A stretch of DNA of 64,000 nt from a virus, in the IMG/VR virus record IMGVR_UViG_3300020185_000014, positions 52,070 through 116,069 of that record; one strand, 5' to 3'. Under the pieces are notes generated by a model. The model made no database searches. It was not told where the DNA came from and was given only the letters and a program-made list of their open reading frames with translations. This document shows, piece by piece, positions 12,983 through 42,061 of the stretch (the stretch's first letter is position 1; each line of letters begins with the position of its first letter). The translations under genes and the position numbers were made by a program.

Positions 12983-14800
12983 CTATTCGGTGACCACACC
13001 AGAAACAGCGCTCAGACTTGCGTCGAAATTTAATATGCTATTTTTGCTCGGAACAATTGCGCTTTCGTTATCAGGCATGACGCTGATATAAATGCTGTTT
13101 GTTCCGGAGACATAACCTTGCGGCAAGAACCCGACGAGTTTAACTGTTCCTGTGCTCGGTACAACCTCCCCGACGTTGTCAACCATGACGATATCATTCG
13201 CCACATCAATGACCTGTAAAATATCGCTATTTACTTTGTTCTTGATAACGCAGTTTTTGTTGCCATATAAGAAAATAGTTGAAGTGACTGTGGTATTTGC
13301 ATTGAGGTCGCTAATAGCATCAGGATATACCAAGGTATAATCTTTCGCTACACCAGCAATGAACTTCAACTGCTGGTTCATCTTAATTGTTGCTCTGGAG
13401 GAAAGAATCGCGGCGTTGTTTTCGTCGATGTAAGTTAACAGGTTCGATCTTCGGAATGCGATACCGAAATTACCGATTGAATTATCGGTAAAGAAATTCC
13501 CGATGGCAGTCTTGACTTCAGTTTCAAGCGTAGAAGGCGAACCAGATAGTGCACCTTCGTTATATTGGAACACGCAAGAAATTTCTATATTGGTAACTGA
13601 AGGTTCGACAAACTTAACACCGAAAGAAAGAATGCCGAGTTGATTCGACAGCGTTATGATATTTGCTTCGAGTTCGCTTACTCTTGTCTCATAGTCCGAC
13701 GAAGACGCGTCAAAGGTATCGACAAAAGAAATATAAACGTTACCGAAATCTGGATTATCGTTGTCTTCACCGCCCCAGCATTCCACTGATGAAATTAATG
13801 CGGGGAATTCTCTTTTAATCAGAGAAGCATAGTCTGAAGAAGTAACCATTCTGTTTTGAGTTGAATATTGAAACGGCGCGTTTTTTCTAATTGATTCGAT
13901 TGATTCTTTATCTTTACCGCCATATGATGCATTACTTGTAGCGACTAACGTTGATGTGAAAGAACCCGATGGATACTCAACTGGGGATACTGGCGTATCA
14001 GAAATGAATACACTCGCGCCATTGCCGTCACTTCCGGCAACGGAAAAATACTCGACCACAACTTTATTTCCGGCGGATGGAACATCGCCCAACGTTCCGC
14101 CGTTCCCGAAAGATAGTTCGAAGTGCCCGTTGGGCGCTTCTTTAAGAATATAGATTCTCGATGTAACGTTCAAATCAGAAGATAATTTGATGTTAGTGTA
14201 ACGAACGAAGTTATTAGATGTCGGAGAATCAAAAACCTTTATACTGACGCTATCCATATCAACGCTTTCATCTGGGATAACATAGACGCTATTCGTTTCG
14301 CCAAAACCGACATTAAACGTTTTGGTTTTTAATTCGCCTTCGTAAAATGTTAGATTTTCCCAAGTGTAATTGCCAGAAACCGAAGCATTAGAAACAGCAG
14401 ACGACCTTGTTCTGAATGTATAGATCTTCTCTTCGAGAGTGGAGGTGATAGAAAATCCTGCAGGCAAGGTATAAGTCGATGGTGCTCCGACCCTGCCATC
14501 GTTGATAGATATGTTCGCATTGAATTTTGCGGAAGATTTAGTTCCAGGAATATACCCAACATTCGTCGCAAGGCCGACTAGAGAAGAACGTAATTGAGCA
14601 GTCGAAATGTATGATTCGTTAAGCGCGAAATTTGCAGTTAATGCGTTGAAGTGTGTATTATACGCGAGAACATCTAACAAGTTAGACAGTCCCGATGCTT
14701 CAAAATTATAATCCGCAAATTCTTCTTTATTGAGAAACTGCTTTAGATTGTTTTTAATTGATGTGAAATCTAAACCAGTAGTATTAATCGTTGTCGCCAT
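12983..14800 (-). CDS. 6: Baseplate wedge subunit gp6
   Basis: 605 residues, close to T4 gp6 (660). The N-terminal segment DFTSIKNNLKQFLN...LLDVLAYNTHFNALTANFA is characteristic: gp6 begins with this helical part and continues into a baseplate-J-like body. The late part (SDYASLIKREFP, VYISFVDTF) also fits baseplate-J proteins. T4 gp6 forms the inner iris that holds the six wedges together. It starts 3 bases after the gp25 stop and is probably co-translated with it. Confidence 0.88.
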   Translation of the reverse strand: MATTINTTGLDFTSIKNNLKQFLNKEEFADYNFEASGLSNLLDVLAYNTHFNALTANFALNESYISTAQLRSSLVGLATNVGYIPGTKSSAKFNANISINDGRVGAPSTYTLPAGFSITSTLEEKIYTFRTRSSAVSNASVSGNYTWENLTFYEGELKTKTFNVGFGETNSVYVIPDESVDMDSVSIKVFDSPTSNNFVRYTNIKLSSDLNVTSRIYILKEAPNGHFELSFGNGGTLGDVPSAGNKVVVEYFSVAGSDGNGASVFISDTPVSPVEYPSGSFTSTLVATSNASYGGKDKESIESIRKNAPFQYSTQNRMVTSSDYASLIKREFPALISSVECWGGEDNDNPDFGNVYISFVDTFDASSSDYETRVSELEANIITLSNQLGILSFGVKFVEPSVTNIEISCVFQYNEGALSGSPSTLETEVKTAIGNFFTDNSIGNFGIAFRRSNLLTYIDENNAAILSSRATIKMNQQLKFIAGVAKDYTLVYPDAISDLNANTTVTSTIFLYGNKNCVIKNKVNSDILQVIDVANDIVMVDNVGEVVPSTGTVKLVGFLPQGYVSGTNSIYISVMPDNESAIVPSKNSILNFDASLSAVSGVVTE

Positions 14801-14802
14801 TA

Positions 14803-15255
14803 TTATCTTAACCTCGATACTGTCGTTTCAAATGTCACAGACTCTGACATTCCCAAAATAGAAAATTGAATTGAAACCGAAATTGCATTTAACTCGGGTC
14901 GGGCGTTGACTTCTATATCTAGAACCTTCGCGCGCGGTTCGTGTTTCTCAATTGCTCTTATAATGTTTTGTTTTATTTCGGACTCTGCGGTCTCCCCGCC
15001 TGATAACTCAAAAAGAAAATCGTTCAGGTTCGCTCCGAAAGAAGCATTGAACGGGCGCTCTAAGTTATTAGTTAGAAGTAAATTTTTGATCGCTTGTTTG
15101 ACTGCCGCAGCGTCTTTCTTCTTATATATGTCCCCAGTGTTCGTATTTTTAGCGAACGTGAGGTCAATATCTTTATAGGTGCGAGTTATTGACGTCTGCA
15201 AACTGACTGTCTGTAAGTCTTCATCTTCATTCGCTAATATTTTTATTGTTGACAT
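14803..15255 (-). CDS. 25: Baseplate wedge subunit gp25
   Basis: 150 residues with the GPW/gp25 fold: RTYKDIDLTF, then AVKQAIKNLLLTNNLERPFN and the conserved end EPRAKVLDIEV. T4 gp25 (132 residues) joins gp6 and gp53 in the wedge core and helps start sheath polymerisation. A TATAAATA late promoter lies 27 bases upstream and gp6 follows at once, so this is the head of a wedge transcription unit. Confidence 0.9.
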   Translation of the reverse strand: MSTIKILANEDEDLQTVSLQTSITRTYKDIDLTFAKNTNTGDIYKKKDAAAVKQAIKNLLLTNNLERPFNASFGANLNDFLFELSGGETAESEIKQNIIRAIEKHEPRAKVLDIEVNARPELNAISVSIQFSILGMSESVTFETTVSRLR

Positions 15256-15292: not shown

Positions 15293-15880
15293 CTATGCAG
15301 GAAGAATTTCAATCAATTCGTTTTTTGATTGTAGTTTTCCATTATAGGTTGTTTCTATTTTCTGTTTAAAGGAAATGTCGAATGATGCTGGAACTGTCGG
15401 CATTGCAAGAACAACCTGACATGAAAGTTTATTGCTAGGATCGAACGTATCATAGTCCAAAACCAGTTTATCAAATTTAAGATAATCTTTCCAATAAACC
15501 GCAAGGTCGAACGATTTACGCAAGTCGATTACGCCTTTCTTGTCAATCAACTGGTAGACTACTGCTCTTCCGGTTTTCTTTAAATCGTTAATCGAATTCG
15601 GAGTGACCGTTTCTTTTAGCGTTGGTCGGTAAACTCCCTCGGCAACAATTAGGCGATGGGAACTGAAATTATTGTTCTTATTGACCATTAACATCGCTTC
15701 AGCATGAAGATATAGTTGTCGTGCTACTTGGGCGCGGTCCACTTCTATCTGTTCGAATTGCGTACGAGTTCCGGCACTTCCCAAGAATTTAGCGCAAGTG
15801 ATGCCTGGACCGAGTTTAGTCGACGACGAAATTGCGCTTTGGTGATTCGGATTATACTTCGGATCAACTAGATAAATCAT
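15293..15880 (-). CDS. Baseplate-associated protein, degenerate M15-peptidase-like
   Basis: 195 residues. The order of segments (LYLHAEAMLMVN, HRLIVAEGVYRP, KKTGRAVVYQL, KSFDLAVYW) resembles the D-Ala-D-Ala/endopeptidase M15 fold, where a SGYR...GRAxD stretch carries the zinc ligands. The His and Asp ligands are not conserved here (GRAVVY in place of GRAVD), so a structural role is more likely than catalysis. It overlaps the spike gene by 4 bases and lies just before the gp25 promoter. The fold assignment is weak; the conserved setting in the hub operon is clear. Confidence 0.5.
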   Translation of the reverse strand: MIYLVDPKYNPNHQSAISSSTKLGPGITCAKFLGSAGTRTQFEQIEVDRAQVARQLYLHAEAMLMVNKNNNFSSHRLIVAEGVYRPTLKETVTPNSINDLKKTGRAVVYQLIDKKGVIDLRKSFDLAVYWKDYLKFDKLVLDYDTFDPSNKLSCQVVLAMPTVPASFDISFKQKIETTYNGKLQSKNELIEILPA

Positions 15881-17328
15881 TGTATCTTAAACCTCTTGCT
15901 CTTCTTATCTAATGGATTGTTCCCGATAATTTGCTGTCCGATCTTGCTGTTGCCGTATTGACCTTCAACCCTGCCAATGTTCTTAGGCGCAGTGTTGCTG
16001 AATTGAGAAGAGAGTTTACCTTCCGACACAAGATTAGATGTGAACTTAGAATTCTTCAAATTCGCAGGATCTCTAAGTTTAGATCTGATCTCGTGAATCG
16101 TGGGATCGCGATCGAACAAATCTTGATAATCGTCAGTCTTTAGAATCTTAGATATTAATGAATTAGGATCATCGATTGTCGTATCTATTTGTACATTCCT
16201 AATCGCATAATTGCTAATAGAAAGGTGGGGGATTACCAACGCAGCGCTGGGCATCGGGGCAGTGGTTGGGATTGTAGCGAACGGCATCACGGTCGGATAA
16301 GATCCTGGAGACCCAGACGGTCCGTCTGGAGCGCTTTTTGCAGCATCTGCTTGTTTTGCCCAACCCGCTTTGTTAGCAAAATCACTAGTGATCGCTTCTT
16401 GCGCTTTCCCGATCAAGGTGCCGTAGAACGTTGTGCCTCCTGCTCCAGACCCCCCAGGAGGTCCAGCAAACGCTTTGCCGTAATGGTCGACTAATTGCCC
16501 GCCGATAGTTCCTTTAGCGCCCATGACGCTAATATTCATTCCAGAAATATTTGTAGTTTGCGAAGATGCTGCCCACTCGAGCGCTGCCGTAGTAACCAAC
16601 GAACCGCCTGATGTAAACTCAACGTTCCCTTCAACAAAATTCTTTTGATCGCCTTTGACCAACAGGTTGTTCTCGCCTAGTATGGTATCGGTATTGGTTC
16701 CGACTACTTGACTGCCGCGCGAACCTTTAATAACATAATTCTGATTCCCATCAACATTTTTTATATGGTTGTGGTTAATGGTTTCGGTTTTATTACCTGC
16801 AGTCGTGACATTAATATTACCACCGACTTCTAAGTTATAATCTCCAGTGACTTTCACTGTCAAATTACCTTTATAGATTAAGTTTCCCTCGCCCTCAACA
16901 ATAACAGTATGATCGTCGCCAGTTACTTCAACCTTCTTATCGACCGACGAAAACAAAACACTGCCGTCGGCGCGAAGTTCAATACCCGATCCGGACTTGT
17001 GTTTAATTAACACTCGCTCGCCGCCAGGAGTATCGTCCACCAACCACACATGACCTGCTGGCGTTTCAGAAACTTGACTGTGGGGGTACTGGGACGGGTT
17101 CTGTTCAGTTGTAATTGTTTCTACTGCAGTATCGCCCCCGAAAGATTTCAGGTTATGTACGGTTTCGCCTTTAGCAGATTTATTGATCGAGTTCCCGAAG
17201 AAATATCCTTGACGAGGATACTCACCAGACGCGTCAATAAATCCATCAGCGGCGATACCTTCACTGTTCTCTCTCGCTTCGCCGATCGTTGCGAGGCGGT
17301 TCTTTAAATTATCTGTTTCGGTTGTCAT
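15877..17328 (-). CDS. 5: Baseplate central spike, gp5 C-terminal beta-helix as a separate gene
   Basis: 483 residues. After a short leader, residues about 95-260 form a repetitive beta-helix of VgrG/gp5C type (for example KGNLTVKVTGDYNLEVGGNI, then VVGTNTDTILGENNLLVKG), the trimeric needle that pierces the outer membrane. A Gly/Pro-rich linker (AGPPGGSGAGGTT) and a C-terminal extension of about 160 residues without repeats follow. There is no OB-fold or lysozyme domain. It overlaps the upstream amidase gene by 4 bases, consistent with coupled synthesis. Family call is firm; the role of the C-terminal extension is unknown. Confidence 0.8.
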   Translation of the reverse strand: MTTETDNLKNRLATIGEARENSEGIAADGFIDASGEYPRQGYFFGNSINKSAKGETVHNLKSFGGDTAVETITTEQNPSQYPHSQVSETPAGHVWLVDDTPGGERVLIKHKSGSGIELRADGSVLFSSVDKKVEVTGDDHTVIVEGEGNLIYKGNLTVKVTGDYNLEVGGNINVTTAGNKTETINHNHIKNVDGNQNYVIKGSRGSQVVGTNTDTILGENNLLVKGDQKNFVEGNVEFTSGGSLVTTAALEWAASSQTTNISGMNISVMGAKGTIGGQLVDHYGKAFAGPPGGSGAGGTTFYGTLIGKAQEAITSDFANKAGWAKQADAAKSAPDGPSGSPGSYPTVMPFATIPTTAPMPSAALVIPHLSISNYAIRNVQIDTTIDDPNSLISKILKTDDYQDLFDRDPTIHEIRSKLRDPANLKNSKFTSNLVSEGKLSSQFSNTAPKNIGRVEGQYGNSKIGQQIIGNNPLDKKSKRFKIQ

Positions 17329-19079
17329 AATTTGGTCGAATTAATTTCCGCTGGAGTGAAAGGTTTTTGAGATGTAGTGTTTTTAAACAACGATGGTTTG
17401 CCGAACATGTCGAGGCAATAATCCCTGACGTCAAATCCAGGATCTAATTCATCATCATCGATATCATTATGCCCGATAACTTGACCTCCAGGATATGCTG
17501 AGTAGAACGCTCTGCAAAACGTTTCGAACGAATTCATTTGAACTCTCGTTAACGAAGAAGATGATAAAAATGCTTGCGGGTTATCAGTTCCAGAAGCGCA
17601 ATTAAACCCACCGACGAAAGCAATTCCAATACTATATGTATCGTGGTCATTGACTGCCGCATGTTGCCCGACGACATTGAGGTTCCTTCCCCGTTGTATA
17701 GAACCGTCTCTTCGAATGATATAGTGATAACCTATCTCGCTCTGCCCGAGTGCAATTTGTTGTTCGTTAATTTCTGAAGATCCAATATCTTTGTTGGTAA
17801 ACGTTTCCGTCCAATGGACAACGACCTCAGTTATGTCTCGCGTCACTTGCCTCAGATCTGCTTCTAATTCTTCAACAGTTGTGATATATGAGTAGACTTT
17901 CTTGTTATTTTCGTCAAAAGTATCTTTACCAATTTCCAATGGGTCTATGAAGACGGACTGCGAAGCGTCCACTATGGTCGATCCTGCGATCGTAGTATTC
18001 AGTCTCTCGAGAATTGATTTGATTGCTTGCGGAGAACTACCAGACTTCTTAGATACGATTTCAACTGCAGCGTCTAATGACCTCTGATCGTCTTGCGATA
18101 ATGTAATTGCGTCATTAATATCAGAGTCTGATAATCCAGGGGCGATTTGTTTAATTTGGTTTGTTGCCTGTTTCGAGAGGTTTTCGCCGAACCCTTGTAG
18201 CAATCCGGATTTTGAATTGGAAATACTTGCGTCAACGCCCTTAGTGTAGTTGTCGGTTTTGATAGAAAGTTCGTTAATGTTTTGCGGTAGGTTTTCCACA
18301 GAATTGTTTACAATATCTCCCGATTTACCAGTTATGCCCGCGAGAGTTGTTTCGAGTTTAGTTTGGTCTACTTCGATGCCCTTTGTTATTGAAGACTGGA
18401 CGGAGGTTACTGAGTTGGATACATCCGTAACCATATCGTCGATGTTTACAGAAATATTATTCGCTCCTGAAGGTGGCGCAGCAAACGAAGAAGAAACATC
18501 TGTCATTGCCGCGTTTGCGGTTTCTGCTAATTGGTTGACCACATCAACGCTGGCGAAACTGCCGACTTTGCCGGCAAGTCCAGTTAATGTACTTTTCACA
18601 CCTGCAGGACTAGCGTTGGCAACTACATTCTGTACGAACCCAGATTTGACTCCTAACCCAGTGATTAAACTCAATGCCGCAGCGAGAGTGCTATTAGTAT
18701 CCGAAATCAAACTTTCGCTGATGATTCTTACATGCCCGTCGGAATCTGGATCAGACCATTCGACAGAAACTTTACTACCGAAAGAACCTGTAAAAGATTC
18801 AATTGTTTCATCGATAGAATTTTTTAGACTCTCAACACCGTCCGTAACCAAACCTTCGACGCTTGCCGTTTGCAGTTTCTGATCCGCTGATGTTGCTTTA
18901 CTCGTTAAACTCTTAATGCCGCCGTTCACTTCTTGGGCAGTATTGCCAACCAACGTTTCTACTGAATTAGTTAGATCCGTTTGCGTCTTATCTGCTTGCG
19001 CTTCCACAAAAGAAGGCGACTGGACTTTATTCTTGAGGTTGCGAACTTCTTCTTTAAATGTAGTTTTATCAATAGGCAT
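17325..19079 (-). CDS. Tail-associated N-acetylmuramoyl-L-alanine amidase
   Basis: 584 residues. The first 400 are Ser/Thr/Asn-rich and helical with low complexity (SVETLVGNTAQEVNGG-type). From about residue 395 to the end is an amidase_2 domain: VVVHWTE with His422, IGYHYIIRRDGSIQRGR with the family Tyr, QHAAVNDHDTYSIGIAFVGG, and IGHNDI...DPGFD giving His537 and Asp546. These three fit the zinc ligands of AmpD/T7-lysozyme-type enzymes. It would cleave the amide bond between MurNAc and L-Ala during entry. It lies between the OB-fold and spike genes, where T4 gp5 has its lysozyme domain. Confidence 0.85.
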   Translation of the reverse strand: MPIDKTTFKEEVRNLKNKVQSPSFVEAQADKTQTDLTNSVETLVGNTAQEVNGGIKSLTSKATSADQKLQTASVEGLVTDGVESLKNSIDETIESFTGSFGSKVSVEWSDPDSDGHVRIISESLISDTNSTLAAALSLITGLGVKSGFVQNVVANASPAGVKSTLTGLAGKVGSFASVDVVNQLAETANAAMTDVSSSFAAPPSGANNISVNIDDMVTDVSNSVTSVQSSITKGIEVDQTKLETTLAGITGKSGDIVNNSVENLPQNINELSIKTDNYTKGVDASISNSKSGLLQGFGENLSKQATNQIKQIAPGLSDSDINDAITLSQDDQRSLDAAVEIVSKKSGSSPQAIKSILERLNTTIAGSTIVDASQSVFIDPLEIGKDTFDENNKKVYSYITTVEELEADLRQVTRDITEVVVHWTETFTNKDIGSSEINEQQIALGQSEIGYHYIIRRDGSIQRGRNLNVVGQHAAVNDHDTYSIGIAFVGGFNCASGTDNPQAFLSSSSLTRVQMNSFETFCRAFYSAYPGGQVIGHNDIDDDELDPGFDVRDYCLDMFGKPSLFKNTTSQKPFTPAEINSTKL

Positions 19080-19081
19080 AA

Positions 19082-19939
19082 TTAATTCGCCAAGGTTTCC
19101 TCATAAGCGATTTCGGCAATATCATTCGCATCTTTATAGTTCGACGCTTTCAGATAATATTTAGCGAACGCTTCCGACGCTTCCTCGATGGTTTCGGCGG
19201 ACGTTAGTTTATAGTTCGCCTTTCGTTTTTTGTTTCTTAACTCGTGCAACACAAATTGGAGTTGAACCGAAAATCGTTTCCAATCATCTTTAATATTGTA
19301 CATAGAAGCAAAATTTAACAGGTCTAGAAACCGCTTACCCGAACCGTCCTTTGACCATGCACCGATACCCTGCAACGTCGAATCGTTCGAATATAGAATA
19401 AACCTCGAAACCAATTGCAACCCAGCAGCGATACTTGCTGCTTGAATAACAGTATAACCGTTCTCTATGAAAAATTTAACTGTTTGACTTCTTCTTTTAT
19501 TGACCGGCGCTTCTCGTGTAGTATCATCGTCAATATCAGGCAACACCATGTTAATAATTTTTTCTTGGTTGTGTTTGTAATTCTCAAGCGTGTTTTGAGT
19601 TTTTGTTTGCGTAGAGGTGGGCAACTCGACTCTTGGTGTTGAACCAATAATAAGAGGGATTTGCGATGAACGACCATCAATAAAAATACCGAATACCATA
19701 CTGCCAGGAAGCAATTGTGGAATTCTACCGATACCGGAAATGCCGCCTTCAGTGTTCGGCATCAAGACCTGCGCCCATGGTAAATCTTTCTCTGGGACTT
19801 CTCCCGTGTACAAGTTATGAATGCCGTTAATTCGCACTTTAACACGACCTTCAAATCCTGCCGGAGGAGTCGTATTAATTAGGGTGCCGACAAACCAACG
19901 AGTTTCATCACCATAAAAAGTTTTTTTAATTGAAAACAT
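19082..19939 (-). CDS. 5: Baseplate hub gp5 N-terminal OB-fold protein with degenerate lysozyme-like tail
   Basis: 285 residues. Residues 1-115 form the gp5 OB-fold (RWFVGTLINTTPP...GRVKVRINGIH, then LPWAQVLMPN and GSMVFGIFIDG), which connects the gp27 ring with the spike. Residues about 145-260 resemble the phage tail lysozyme family: FFIENGYTVIQAASIAAGLQ, then GIGAWSKDGSGKRFLDL. The family's usual ES pair after the GxLQ helix reads VS here (GLQLVSRF), so the catalytic Glu seems lost. The gene abuts the amidase gene (2-base gap) and overlaps the gp27-like gene by one base. Confidence 0.75.
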   Translation of the reverse strand: MFSIKKTFYGDETRWFVGTLINTTPPAGFEGRVKVRINGIHNLYTGEVPEKDLPWAQVLMPNTEGGISGIGRIPQLLPGSMVFGIFIDGRSSQIPLIIGSTPRVELPTSTQTKTQNTLENYKHNQEKIINMVLPDIDDDTTREAPVNKRRSQTVKFFIENGYTVIQAASIAAGLQLVSRFILYSNDSTLQGIGAWSKDGSGKRFLDLLNFASMYNIKDDWKRFSVQLQFVLHELRNKKRKANYKLTSAETIEEASEAFAKYYLKASNYKDANDIAEIAYEETLAN

Positions 19940-21273
19940 TATAACACCAAACTCTTATTATTTTTGCTGATGCGCGATACATCGAGAGAAACAATATGCT
20001 GCGTATCTCTAAACGTATGCCGTGTTGCGAAAATCAAATAATCCCCAGACTTCTCAGGATCTAACGGCGATTCGACATTATTCTCCGCGTTGCTAGTTGT
20101 AAAATGAATACGAACCATATCTCCAACTGTCGCCTTCACCAGCATGAACATAGTGCCACTAACAGAAATACTCATCATGTTTTTATACAATGCTGACTTG
20201 ATTGTTTTATTTTTTACATTCAACGCGAACGTTGACGCGTCGGGTTCATCATGATAACTCTTAAATTCGCCATATGTTCCGCTCGATGAAACTTGGTGGA
20301 AATAAACCGCATTGAATGCATCACTGGCGCTGCTGTTAAATTGTTGTTGTTCGTCGTACAATAATTGCTCAGACTCTTTGCTGATCGTACCATTATCTTT
20401 TAAAGCTTCGATGACGTGCTTTGATGATACGTGCGAACGATACGATAACCCTGTTCCTATATCAGTGTTTGTATAAAAAGAACCAACACATCCATCATCA
20501 ATAAAATCTAATGAGTTGTGATTTGATGTTAAACTGTACGCAAGGATTTGACTGGCCCGGAAAGACTCGTCCAACTCGGTTGCCGTTTGAGTTGCTGCCT
20601 GAGAATGAATGAACGGCAGTTTTTCGTTAAACGGTTTTTGTTTCAACATTTTTTCTAAGTCGCCGAGTCTGACCCTTTTGTCATGTATTGATGAATATAA
20701 GAACAACGGCGACCCCGTTGAAGAGCACGCCTTCTCTAAGATCCAGGCGCATGCTTCGATAGGGGTCATATATGGAACGATAAGTTTTCGTTGAGCGAGG
20801 TTTTTGGTATTGTCCGAAAGGTACGACGCATCAACATCGAGTTTTAATTTGGTGTTAATTATCTTTGTAATGATATTCGGAAAGTTGTCTGTATATGAAC
20901 GACTAAATGGTATCAGGGCATTGAAGTAATTATGCACTTCGACCAACTGAAACATCAAAGTTTCTGCCGCATCATTAGACTTAACGCTCTTAATCATATT
21001 TGATATGATGAACTTTTTCTCGACTAATCTATCTTCGTCTTCTACCGCCGAAGATAAAACTATATTCAAATATTCAGTCCCTTTAAACTGCAGTGATTCG
21101 AAAAGTCCAAGGTTGTCTACCATAACCAAAGTCCCAGTCAGGTATGGTTTTTCTATTGATTCAAAAATTGTCAACTCATAAATTAACTGAGAAACATCAA
21201 GTTTCAAATCATCAAACCGATCCGCAGTGATGACTGCTTCGGATATTTTAAATTGTTGATCAAGACTAGGCAT
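19939..21273 (-). CDS. 27: Baseplate hub subunit, gp27-like
   Basis: 444 residues (T4 gp27 is 391). The start FKISEAVITADRF...IYELTIFESIEKPYLTGTL matches the first barrel of gp27/VgrG-type hub proteins, and VGDMVRIHF with the final SGDYLIFATRHTF fits the late barrel. T4 gp27 trimers form the torus that joins the spike to the tail tube. It lies directly before the OB-fold gp5 gene, its binding partner. Assignment rests on pattern and position. Confidence 0.72.
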   Translation of the reverse strand: MPSLDQQFKISEAVITADRFDDLKLDVSQLIYELTIFESIEKPYLTGTLVMVDNLGLFESLQFKGTEYLNIVLSSAVEDEDRLVEKKFIISNMIKSVKSNDAAETLMFQLVEVHNYFNALIPFSRSYTDNFPNIITKIINTKLKLDVDASYLSDNTKNLAQRKLIVPYMTPIEACAWILEKACSSTGSPLFLYSSIHDKRVRLGDLEKMLKQKPFNEKLPFIHSQAATQTATELDESFRASQILAYSLTSNHNSLDFIDDGCVGSFYTNTDIGTGLSYRSHVSSKHVIEALKDNGTISKESEQLLYDEQQQFNSSASDAFNAVYFHQVSSSGTYGEFKSYHDEPDASTFALNVKNKTIKSALYKNMMSISVSGTMFMLVKATVGDMVRIHFTTSNAENNVESPLDPEKSGDYLIFATRHTFRDTQHIVSLDVSRISKNNKSLVL

Positions 21274-41477: not shown

Positions 41478-41615
41478 CTACCTGCCTTGACCTCTATATT
41501 TTTTATAAGAACGTTTCTTATGTTTGTTAAGACCGCTTATATTAAAACGACCACGACCAATTGAAGTTCCTTTCGGCATTTTTTCAACTTTAGCACTTCC
41601 GCCATGTAGCGCCAT
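41478..41615 (-). CDS. Small basic conserved T4-like protein
   Basis: 45 residues with GTSIGRGR and the end NKHKKRSYKKYRGQGR, a short protein I recognise from T4-like cyanophage genomes. Its ATG overlaps the lysozyme stop (TAATG). Nucleic-acid binding is possible from the charge; function unknown. Confidence 0.6.
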   Translation of the reverse strand: MALHGGSAKVEKMPKGTSIGRGRFNISGLNKHKKRSYKKYRGQGR

Positions 41616-42061
41616 TACACATTCTCCAATCTAGTCATTAATCTTTCCGCGCGGTTGGTTACTTGTCTATGCCACCTAGAATCGCGCCCTTCTACTGCGG
41701 CAGTTTTCCAATCACTTTCTAACAATGCCGCATTCATTTTCTTGAACTTACTTAAACGAGGTCGACCCATGTTAAACATCATGTTAACAACTATTTGTTG
41801 AACTTCCTCTGGAAAATTGTCGAAGTTTCCGCCAGGAAACAATTGATGGCATTCTGCGATTGCTGTATCCAAATCTTGATCAAAGGCATCCCAAACCCTT
41901 TCTTCTGATACTGGAGTTGCCACCGCAACTCCACTTTCTGCATCATCCGAACAGATTAAATGTCCAACGCCGAATGTCGGTAAACCAAGATGATCCAAGT
42001 ATACCTCATACTTGACCCCTTCATCGATTTTCAATTGCTCGAAAACTTCTTTTCTGTTCAT
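41615..42061 (-). CDS. e: T4-type lysozyme (endolysin, GH24)
   Basis: 148 residues (T4 gpe is 164). LKIDEGVKYEVYLDHLGLPT followed by FGVGHL contains Glu14, Asp23 and Thr29, with the same 9- and 6-residue spacing as T4 Glu11/Asp20/Thr26. VVNMMFNMG and WHRQVTNRAERL are also family blocks. No signal peptide, so it needs a holin, none of which is recognised here. It cleaves the MurNAc-GlcNAc bond at lysis. Confidence 0.95.
   Translation of the reverse strand: MNRKEVFEQLKIDEGVKYEVYLDHLGLPTFGVGHLICSDDAESGVAVATPVSEERVWDAFDQDLDTAIAECHQLFPGGNFDNFPEEVQQIVVNMMFNMGRPRLSKFKKMNAALLESDWKTAAVEGRDSRWHRQVTNRAERLMTRLENV

Follow-up and report, generated by a model that had tools for sequence, protein, structure and literature searches.

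Separate spike genes and two wall hydrolases in a T4-like phage module that appears to need one working enzyme

A baseplate locus with separate spike genes

The stretch of viral DNA analysed here (the window, 64,000 nucleotides of a 116,069-base IMG/VR virus record) carries on its minus strand three consecutive, intact open reading frames: gene 1 (19082–19939, 285 aa), gene 2 (17325–19079, 584 aa) and gene 3 (15877–17328, 483 aa). Genes 1 and 2 are separated by a 2-nt gap, genes 2 and 3 overlap by the 4 nt ATGA, and a fourth gene on the same strand (15293–15880) encodes a 195-aa protein of no known family. Directly upstream of gene 1, in the position of T4 gp27, lies a gene for a hub protein (19939–21273; phrog_350 tail protein, 1.4e-36), and the module is followed by genes for a gp25-like (14803–15255; GPW_gp25, 3.5e-13) and a gp6-like baseplate wedge protein (12983–14800; phrog_219, 2e-120), all of them likewise on the minus strand. 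These neighbours on either side identify the region as the operon for hub and spike of the baseplate in a T4-like (Kyanoviridae-like) phage; the nearest cultured phages by gp6, all of them placed in Kyanoviridae, are C48C1 (37%), Methylophilales phage Melnitz and Pelagibacter phage HTVC008M.

T4 gp5 is cleaved into two products, gp5*, which contains the OB fold and the lysozyme, and gp5C (PMC3004832). An earlier sequence-only reading of this locus took the three genes to be T4 gp5 split in domain order, encoding separately what T4 makes by cleavage and with an amidase in place of the lysozyme. The frames, their strand and their tight junctions are as that reading described them, and the gp5-type OB fold that it assigned to gene 1 is indeed present (aa ~2–110; Pfam Gp5_OB, 1.4e-6, above the cut-off, with T4 gp5 chains matched in the PDB), but it overlooked a second domain in the same protein (aa ~144–285), which matches Phage_lysozyme2 at 3.4e-12, above the curated cut-off (Pfam match 150–269). 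This spike lysozyme is not of the T4 type (GH24) but belongs to the phi29 gp13 family, and it matches the phi29 tail lysozyme gp13 in the PDB when profiles of the relatives are used. Because gene 1 carries its own lysozyme domain, the amidase is an extra gene, and the idea that it has taken the lysozyme's position is refuted.

The enzyme encoded between the OB and spike genes is, as had been proposed, of the Amidase_2 family (aa ~414–548; Pfam 1.4e-14, T7 lysozyme match 7e-13), and it is preceded by a helical-looking N-terminal region of about 390 residues (aa ~1–395) that belongs to no known family and that gave no homology in hhalign comparisons with the phage C48C1 helical protein or with P-SSM2 gp5. 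The domain-order claim therefore holds only in part: OB fold, enzyme and beta-helix do come from separate genes, and genes 1 and 3 match gp5* and gp5C, but the amidase matches neither cleavage product and is an additional middle gene with no T4 counterpart.

Gene 3 is the beta-helix spike that the sequence-only reading had recognised, matching phrog_430 (8e-32) and residues 385–580 of T4 gp5 (2e-13); it is predicted to form a trimeric beta-helix of the gp5C type and carries a conserved C-terminal extension. Near its start (aa 29–38) stands a GFxDxxGxYP motif that is present in 104 of 123 relatives. The same motif is found in T4 gp5 just after the OB domain, between OB and lysozyme, and in HTVC008M between the OB and spike parts of one short, enzyme-free protein. 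Since the motif here opens the spike gene, the gene break differs from the T4 cleavage point, contrary to what had been supposed, and the OB-spike junction of gp5 may be read as a slot that has been fitted with different hydrolases. As for gene 4, it has no Pfam or PHROG match, but among 156 relatives its counterpart forms a C-terminal fusion with the spike in 68, is a separate gene in 70 and was not seen in 18; on the strength of these fusions, it is probably a spike component, perhaps an unrecognised component of the spike or its tip.

Elsewhere in the 116,069-base record, which is possibly incomplete, there is no second gp5 OB domain, Phage_lysozyme2 or Amidase_2, in line with the expectation that no separate full-length gp5 would be present. 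The window does contain a separate Phage_lysozyme (PF00959) gene on the minus strand (41615–42061), likely an endolysin.

Relatives and their active-site states

The three-gene order was sought in relatives, as the sequence-only reading had suggested, by IMG/VR profile scans with genes 1, 2 and 3, keeping the best 80 loci per scan. Separate OB+lysozyme, amidase-fold and spike genes in the same order were found in at least 264 IMG/VR loci, 156 of them non-redundant, and among 150 measurable cases the first junction falls within −35 to +30 nt in 142 and the second in 149. Sequencing error as the source of the gene boundaries is excluded by this recurrence, and chance is likewise excluded as the origin of the arrangement. 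In the first analysis, the viral loci missing one of the three genes were all truncated contigs. The three-gene arrangement is the rule in a large, uncultured and apparently marine clade rather than a peculiarity of one virus; no cultured phage in the searched collection carries it. In a subclade of eight relatives (L052, L053, L056, L058, L060, L064, L065 and L069), an extra stretch of about 0.8–1.3 kb lies between the OB-lysozyme and amidase genes. Five further relatives (L311, L323, L325, L331 and L352) combine the OB fold with an M15-peptidase-like motif and with a dead amidase in one open reading frame of about 880 aa (for example L311:1685–4360 and L325:5351–7981), followed by the spike. 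The motif, H-x6-D...HxD, stands in place of the lysozyme; the domain is called peptidase-like from this motif, with no Pfam report, and would be a third kind of enzyme to occupy this slot.

In the window, the position of the catalytic Glu of the lysozyme is occupied by Val177 (19409–19411, minus strand), in the context LQLVSRF. The column was set by alignment to PDB 3csr, which places Glu45 of gp13 at the ES motif within the lysozyme domain, and it was followed through alignments of 108–156 relatives. Glu45 is the suggested catalytic residue of gp13, and mutation has shown the corresponding residue of GH184 to be essential (PMC10394673); from this substitution we read the lysozyme active site of the window as lost. 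The amidase, in turn, retains equivalents of the zinc ligands (H422, H537 and D546; His/His/Asp) and of Tyr46 of T7 lysozyme (Tyr451); the T7 row of the alignment was typed in manually and, over the residues used, matches the 1aro alignment. Because the lysozyme has lost its catalytic Glu while the zinc site of the amidase is intact, a shift of enzyme class from glycosidase to amidase is likely in this virus, and in this functional form the replacement that had been proposed probably stands. Amidase activity is not assured, the main biochemical doubt being Glu544: it stands where T7 lysozyme has Lys128, a position that is variable across the clade that has lost the lysozyme Glu. Lys128 is not universal among active Amidase_2 enzymes, and animal PGRP amidases work with Thr there.

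When the 156 non-redundant loci are classified by the lysozyme catalytic Glu and the amidase zinc site, 69 have lost the Glu and kept the zinc site, 55 have kept the Glu and lost the zinc site, 32 retain both and none has lost both, although a rare double-loss lineage could be missed among the best 80 loci per scan. The 88 loci from OB-based scans alone, which were not selected for amidase, give the same picture (34, 41, 13 and 0, respectively). The lost Glu has been replaced by a scatter of residues (A, V, I, Q, T, K, S, F and others), and two residues that were not used in the classification follow the active-site states closely: the Gln of a QW motif is present in 83 of 87 lysozymes with the Glu vs 6 of 69 without, and the Tyr46 equivalent in 97 of 101 amidases with an intact zinc site vs 7 of 55 without.

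The dead amidases are true homologues (hhalign 5e-59) yet fall below Pfam detection, and they retain a HYxIxRDGxxxRGRP core. Pairwise dN/dS is 0.071 for dead vs 0.062–0.066 for live lysozymes, and 0.143 for dead vs 0.044–0.049 for live amidases, such that dead lysozymes are constrained like live ones and dead amidases are under weaker but clear constraint. This purifying selection implies that the dead domains are not decaying remnants.

Independence of the losses and competing explanations

A naive Fisher test of the reciprocal pattern (8e-20) was set aside because the loci share kinship, and tree-based tests were used instead. The tree was built with FastTree from the hub, OB, spike, gp25 and gp6 sequences, with both enzymes left out, and has some weak nodes. 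On this tree there are about six separate lysozyme losses (L226; L358; L151/155/159; L153/L324; L353; and the clade of the window) and a minimum of four to five losses of the amidase (the main clade, L292, L357, L223/242 and L245/263/297). A four-state model with dependent losses beats independence (LR 19.7, p 5e-5), with both second-loss rates estimated at 0. Two tips are doubtful, L358, where Asp replaces Glu, and L115, which has a Glu inside a lost clade but no QW motif; without doubtful tips such as these, the outcome is unchanged (LR 19.3, p 6e-5). In its conservative version, a Poisson estimate made earlier with 123 loci put the joint P at about 1e-4; the strict no-regain version (3e-8) was rejected as too generous, the single nested tips L115 and L180 splitting losses. 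Among close sister loci, L353 has Gln and L356 has Glu at the lysozyme catalytic position, a recent natural inactivation.

Several other accounts of the locus can be envisioned. That T4 gp5 has merely been cut in three, with an amidase instead of a lysozyme, agrees with the gene order but is hardly credible given the lysozyme domain within gene 1 and the motif that puts the break away from the T4 cleavage site. It is also improbable that the amidase is a lysis endolysin or accessory enzyme that happens to be encoded in the baseplate operon and is absent from the virion. Its nearest sequence family is that of phage lysis amidases (phrog_822, with endolysin matches), but in all of the recovered loci (at least 264) the gene is translationally coupled and stands between the OB and spike genes, its N-terminal region does not resemble endolysins, versions that are catalytically dead persist at the same place, five relatives have it fused to the OB protein, and the separate Phage_lysozyme gene, as the likely endolysin, argues against a lysis role for the hub enzyme. 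From operon position, coupling and these fusions, we infer that the amidase is part of the virion. A somewhat stronger, though still unlikely, objection is that no requirement underlies the reciprocal pattern, which would instead stem from sampling together with two or three old losses at the level of whole clades: most loci without the lysozyme Glu do fall in one clade and most loci without the amidase zinc site in another, and only the best 80 loci per scan were sampled. Against this stand the number of losses in separate places, including the young L353/L356 pair, the long branches with zero double losses, the dependence test, and the five loci without a lysozyme domain that bear the M15-like motif instead.

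The most serious alternative concerns the role of the dead domain rather than the pattern of loss. Beyond serving as a scaffold, it may bind peptidoglycan and thereby anchor the live enzyme to its substrate; purifying selection on the dead domains and the conserved core of the dead amidases both speak for this role, as does the precedent of non-catalytic PGRPs, which have the Amidase_2 fold and bind peptidoglycan without zinc (PMC8124813). The roughly threefold higher dN/dS of dead compared with live amidases, however, is what relaxed constraint predicts, and we consider this possibility a real one but less likely than not to be the full account. We incline to an either/or, two-enzyme device, in which selection demands one active wall hydrolase, lineages have settled on a glycosidase, an amidase or a peptidase, and the inactive partner has become a lasting subunit with a structural or wall-binding role. 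The active hydrolase could also be an enzyme that sits in another part of the tail.

Known systems and a model for the spike

A split gp5 is in itself already known. In the cultured Methylophilales phage Melnitz EXVC044M, genes 154/155 are annotated as two genes, one encoding OB fold and enzyme together and the other a spike that opens with the GFRDPNNFYPRR motif, as here; Melnitz differs in having no amidase gene and in carrying a VanY-like peptidase (1.1e-4, just under the Pfam cut-off) in place of Phage_lysozyme2. The Rhizobium phages RHph_I1_18 and RHph_I46 also have separate OB and spike genes. In RHph_I1_18, the OB fold is joined to a Phage_lysozyme2 with intact Glu and the middle gene encodes a 116-aa protein without amidase; in the cultured RHph_I46, the OB gene (L236:5001–5867) and the spike gene (L237:3465–6020) are 33 kb apart, and the latter comes after the terminase gene. 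The gp5 proteins of Ochrobactrum phage OC and Caulobacter phage Cr30 share with the window the OB fold, Phage_lysozyme2 (with intact Glu) and spike, but as a single fused polypeptide and without amidase. The gp5 of HTVC008M (L235:1273–2325, 350 aa) comprises OB and spike with no recognisable enzyme domain, and is annotated as a tail lysozyme; gp5 of pelagimyophages and cyanophages has been noted as highly divergent (PMC7029224).

Compared with T4 gp5 itself (PDB 1k28), the window shares the OB fold, enzyme, beta-helix and adjoining gp27-like hub, but T4 makes one polypeptide with a T4-type lysozyme that cleaves itself at Ser351/Ala352, whereas the window has separate genes, a phi29-type lysozyme with a dead site and an additional amidase gene. 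The N-terminal domain of phi29 gp13 (PDB 3csr) belongs to the same fold family as the gene 1 lysozyme, with Val replacing Glu45 in the latter, and gene 2 conserves the zinc ligand and Tyr46 equivalents of T7 lysozyme (Amidase_2, PDB 1aro) but differs from it in the 390-aa N-terminal extension, the probable hub location and the Glu at the Lys128 equivalent. In the literature searched, we found no published description of a three-gene spike or of reciprocal active-site loss; as far as these searches reach, the conserved three-gene, two-hydrolase spike and the repeated, mutually exclusive loss of its active sites are new.

In the T4 model, contraction of the tail forces a needle across the outer membrane, and an enzyme of the hub opens the wall (PMC3004832). 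By analogy, the needle here would cross that membrane on tail contraction, and a hub-borne peptidoglycan hydrolase would then open the wall locally. The parts would be an OB-lysozyme adapter, an amidase with a helical region, a needle formed by the beta-helix and a small partner of the spike, encoded by separate, co-translated genes; as these parts are separate polypeptides, no proteolytic maturation would be needed. In the window virus, the amidase would be the working enzyme, and the lysozyme domain, its catalytic Glu gone, would be retained for structure or for wall binding. The ancestor would have had both enzymes active, with lineages then losing either one repeatedly, but never both. Taken as a whole, a T4-like spike module of separate genes, in which either enzyme may work, one active hydrolase is needed and the dead partner is kept, is in our judgement the probable explanation; it draws on what was observed of the domains and the order of their genes, of the residue states and how they are distributed, of dependence on the tree and of purifying selection on dead domains, and it supposes that the parts are in the virion, form a complex and include an active enzyme.

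For annotation, the clade holds a warning: dead amidases escape Pfam, and intact-looking "tail lysozymes" may be inactive. More broadly, the need for a tail-borne wall enzyme and the choice of its type are difficult to examine in T4, since its enzyme and spike form a single protein. This clade offers a natural experiment, with two hydrolases per spike and repeated loss of either but never both; its members supply natural active-site knockouts and an example of enzymes becoming structural parts, in a device that appears to require one working wall enzyme and to keep the dead one as a part.
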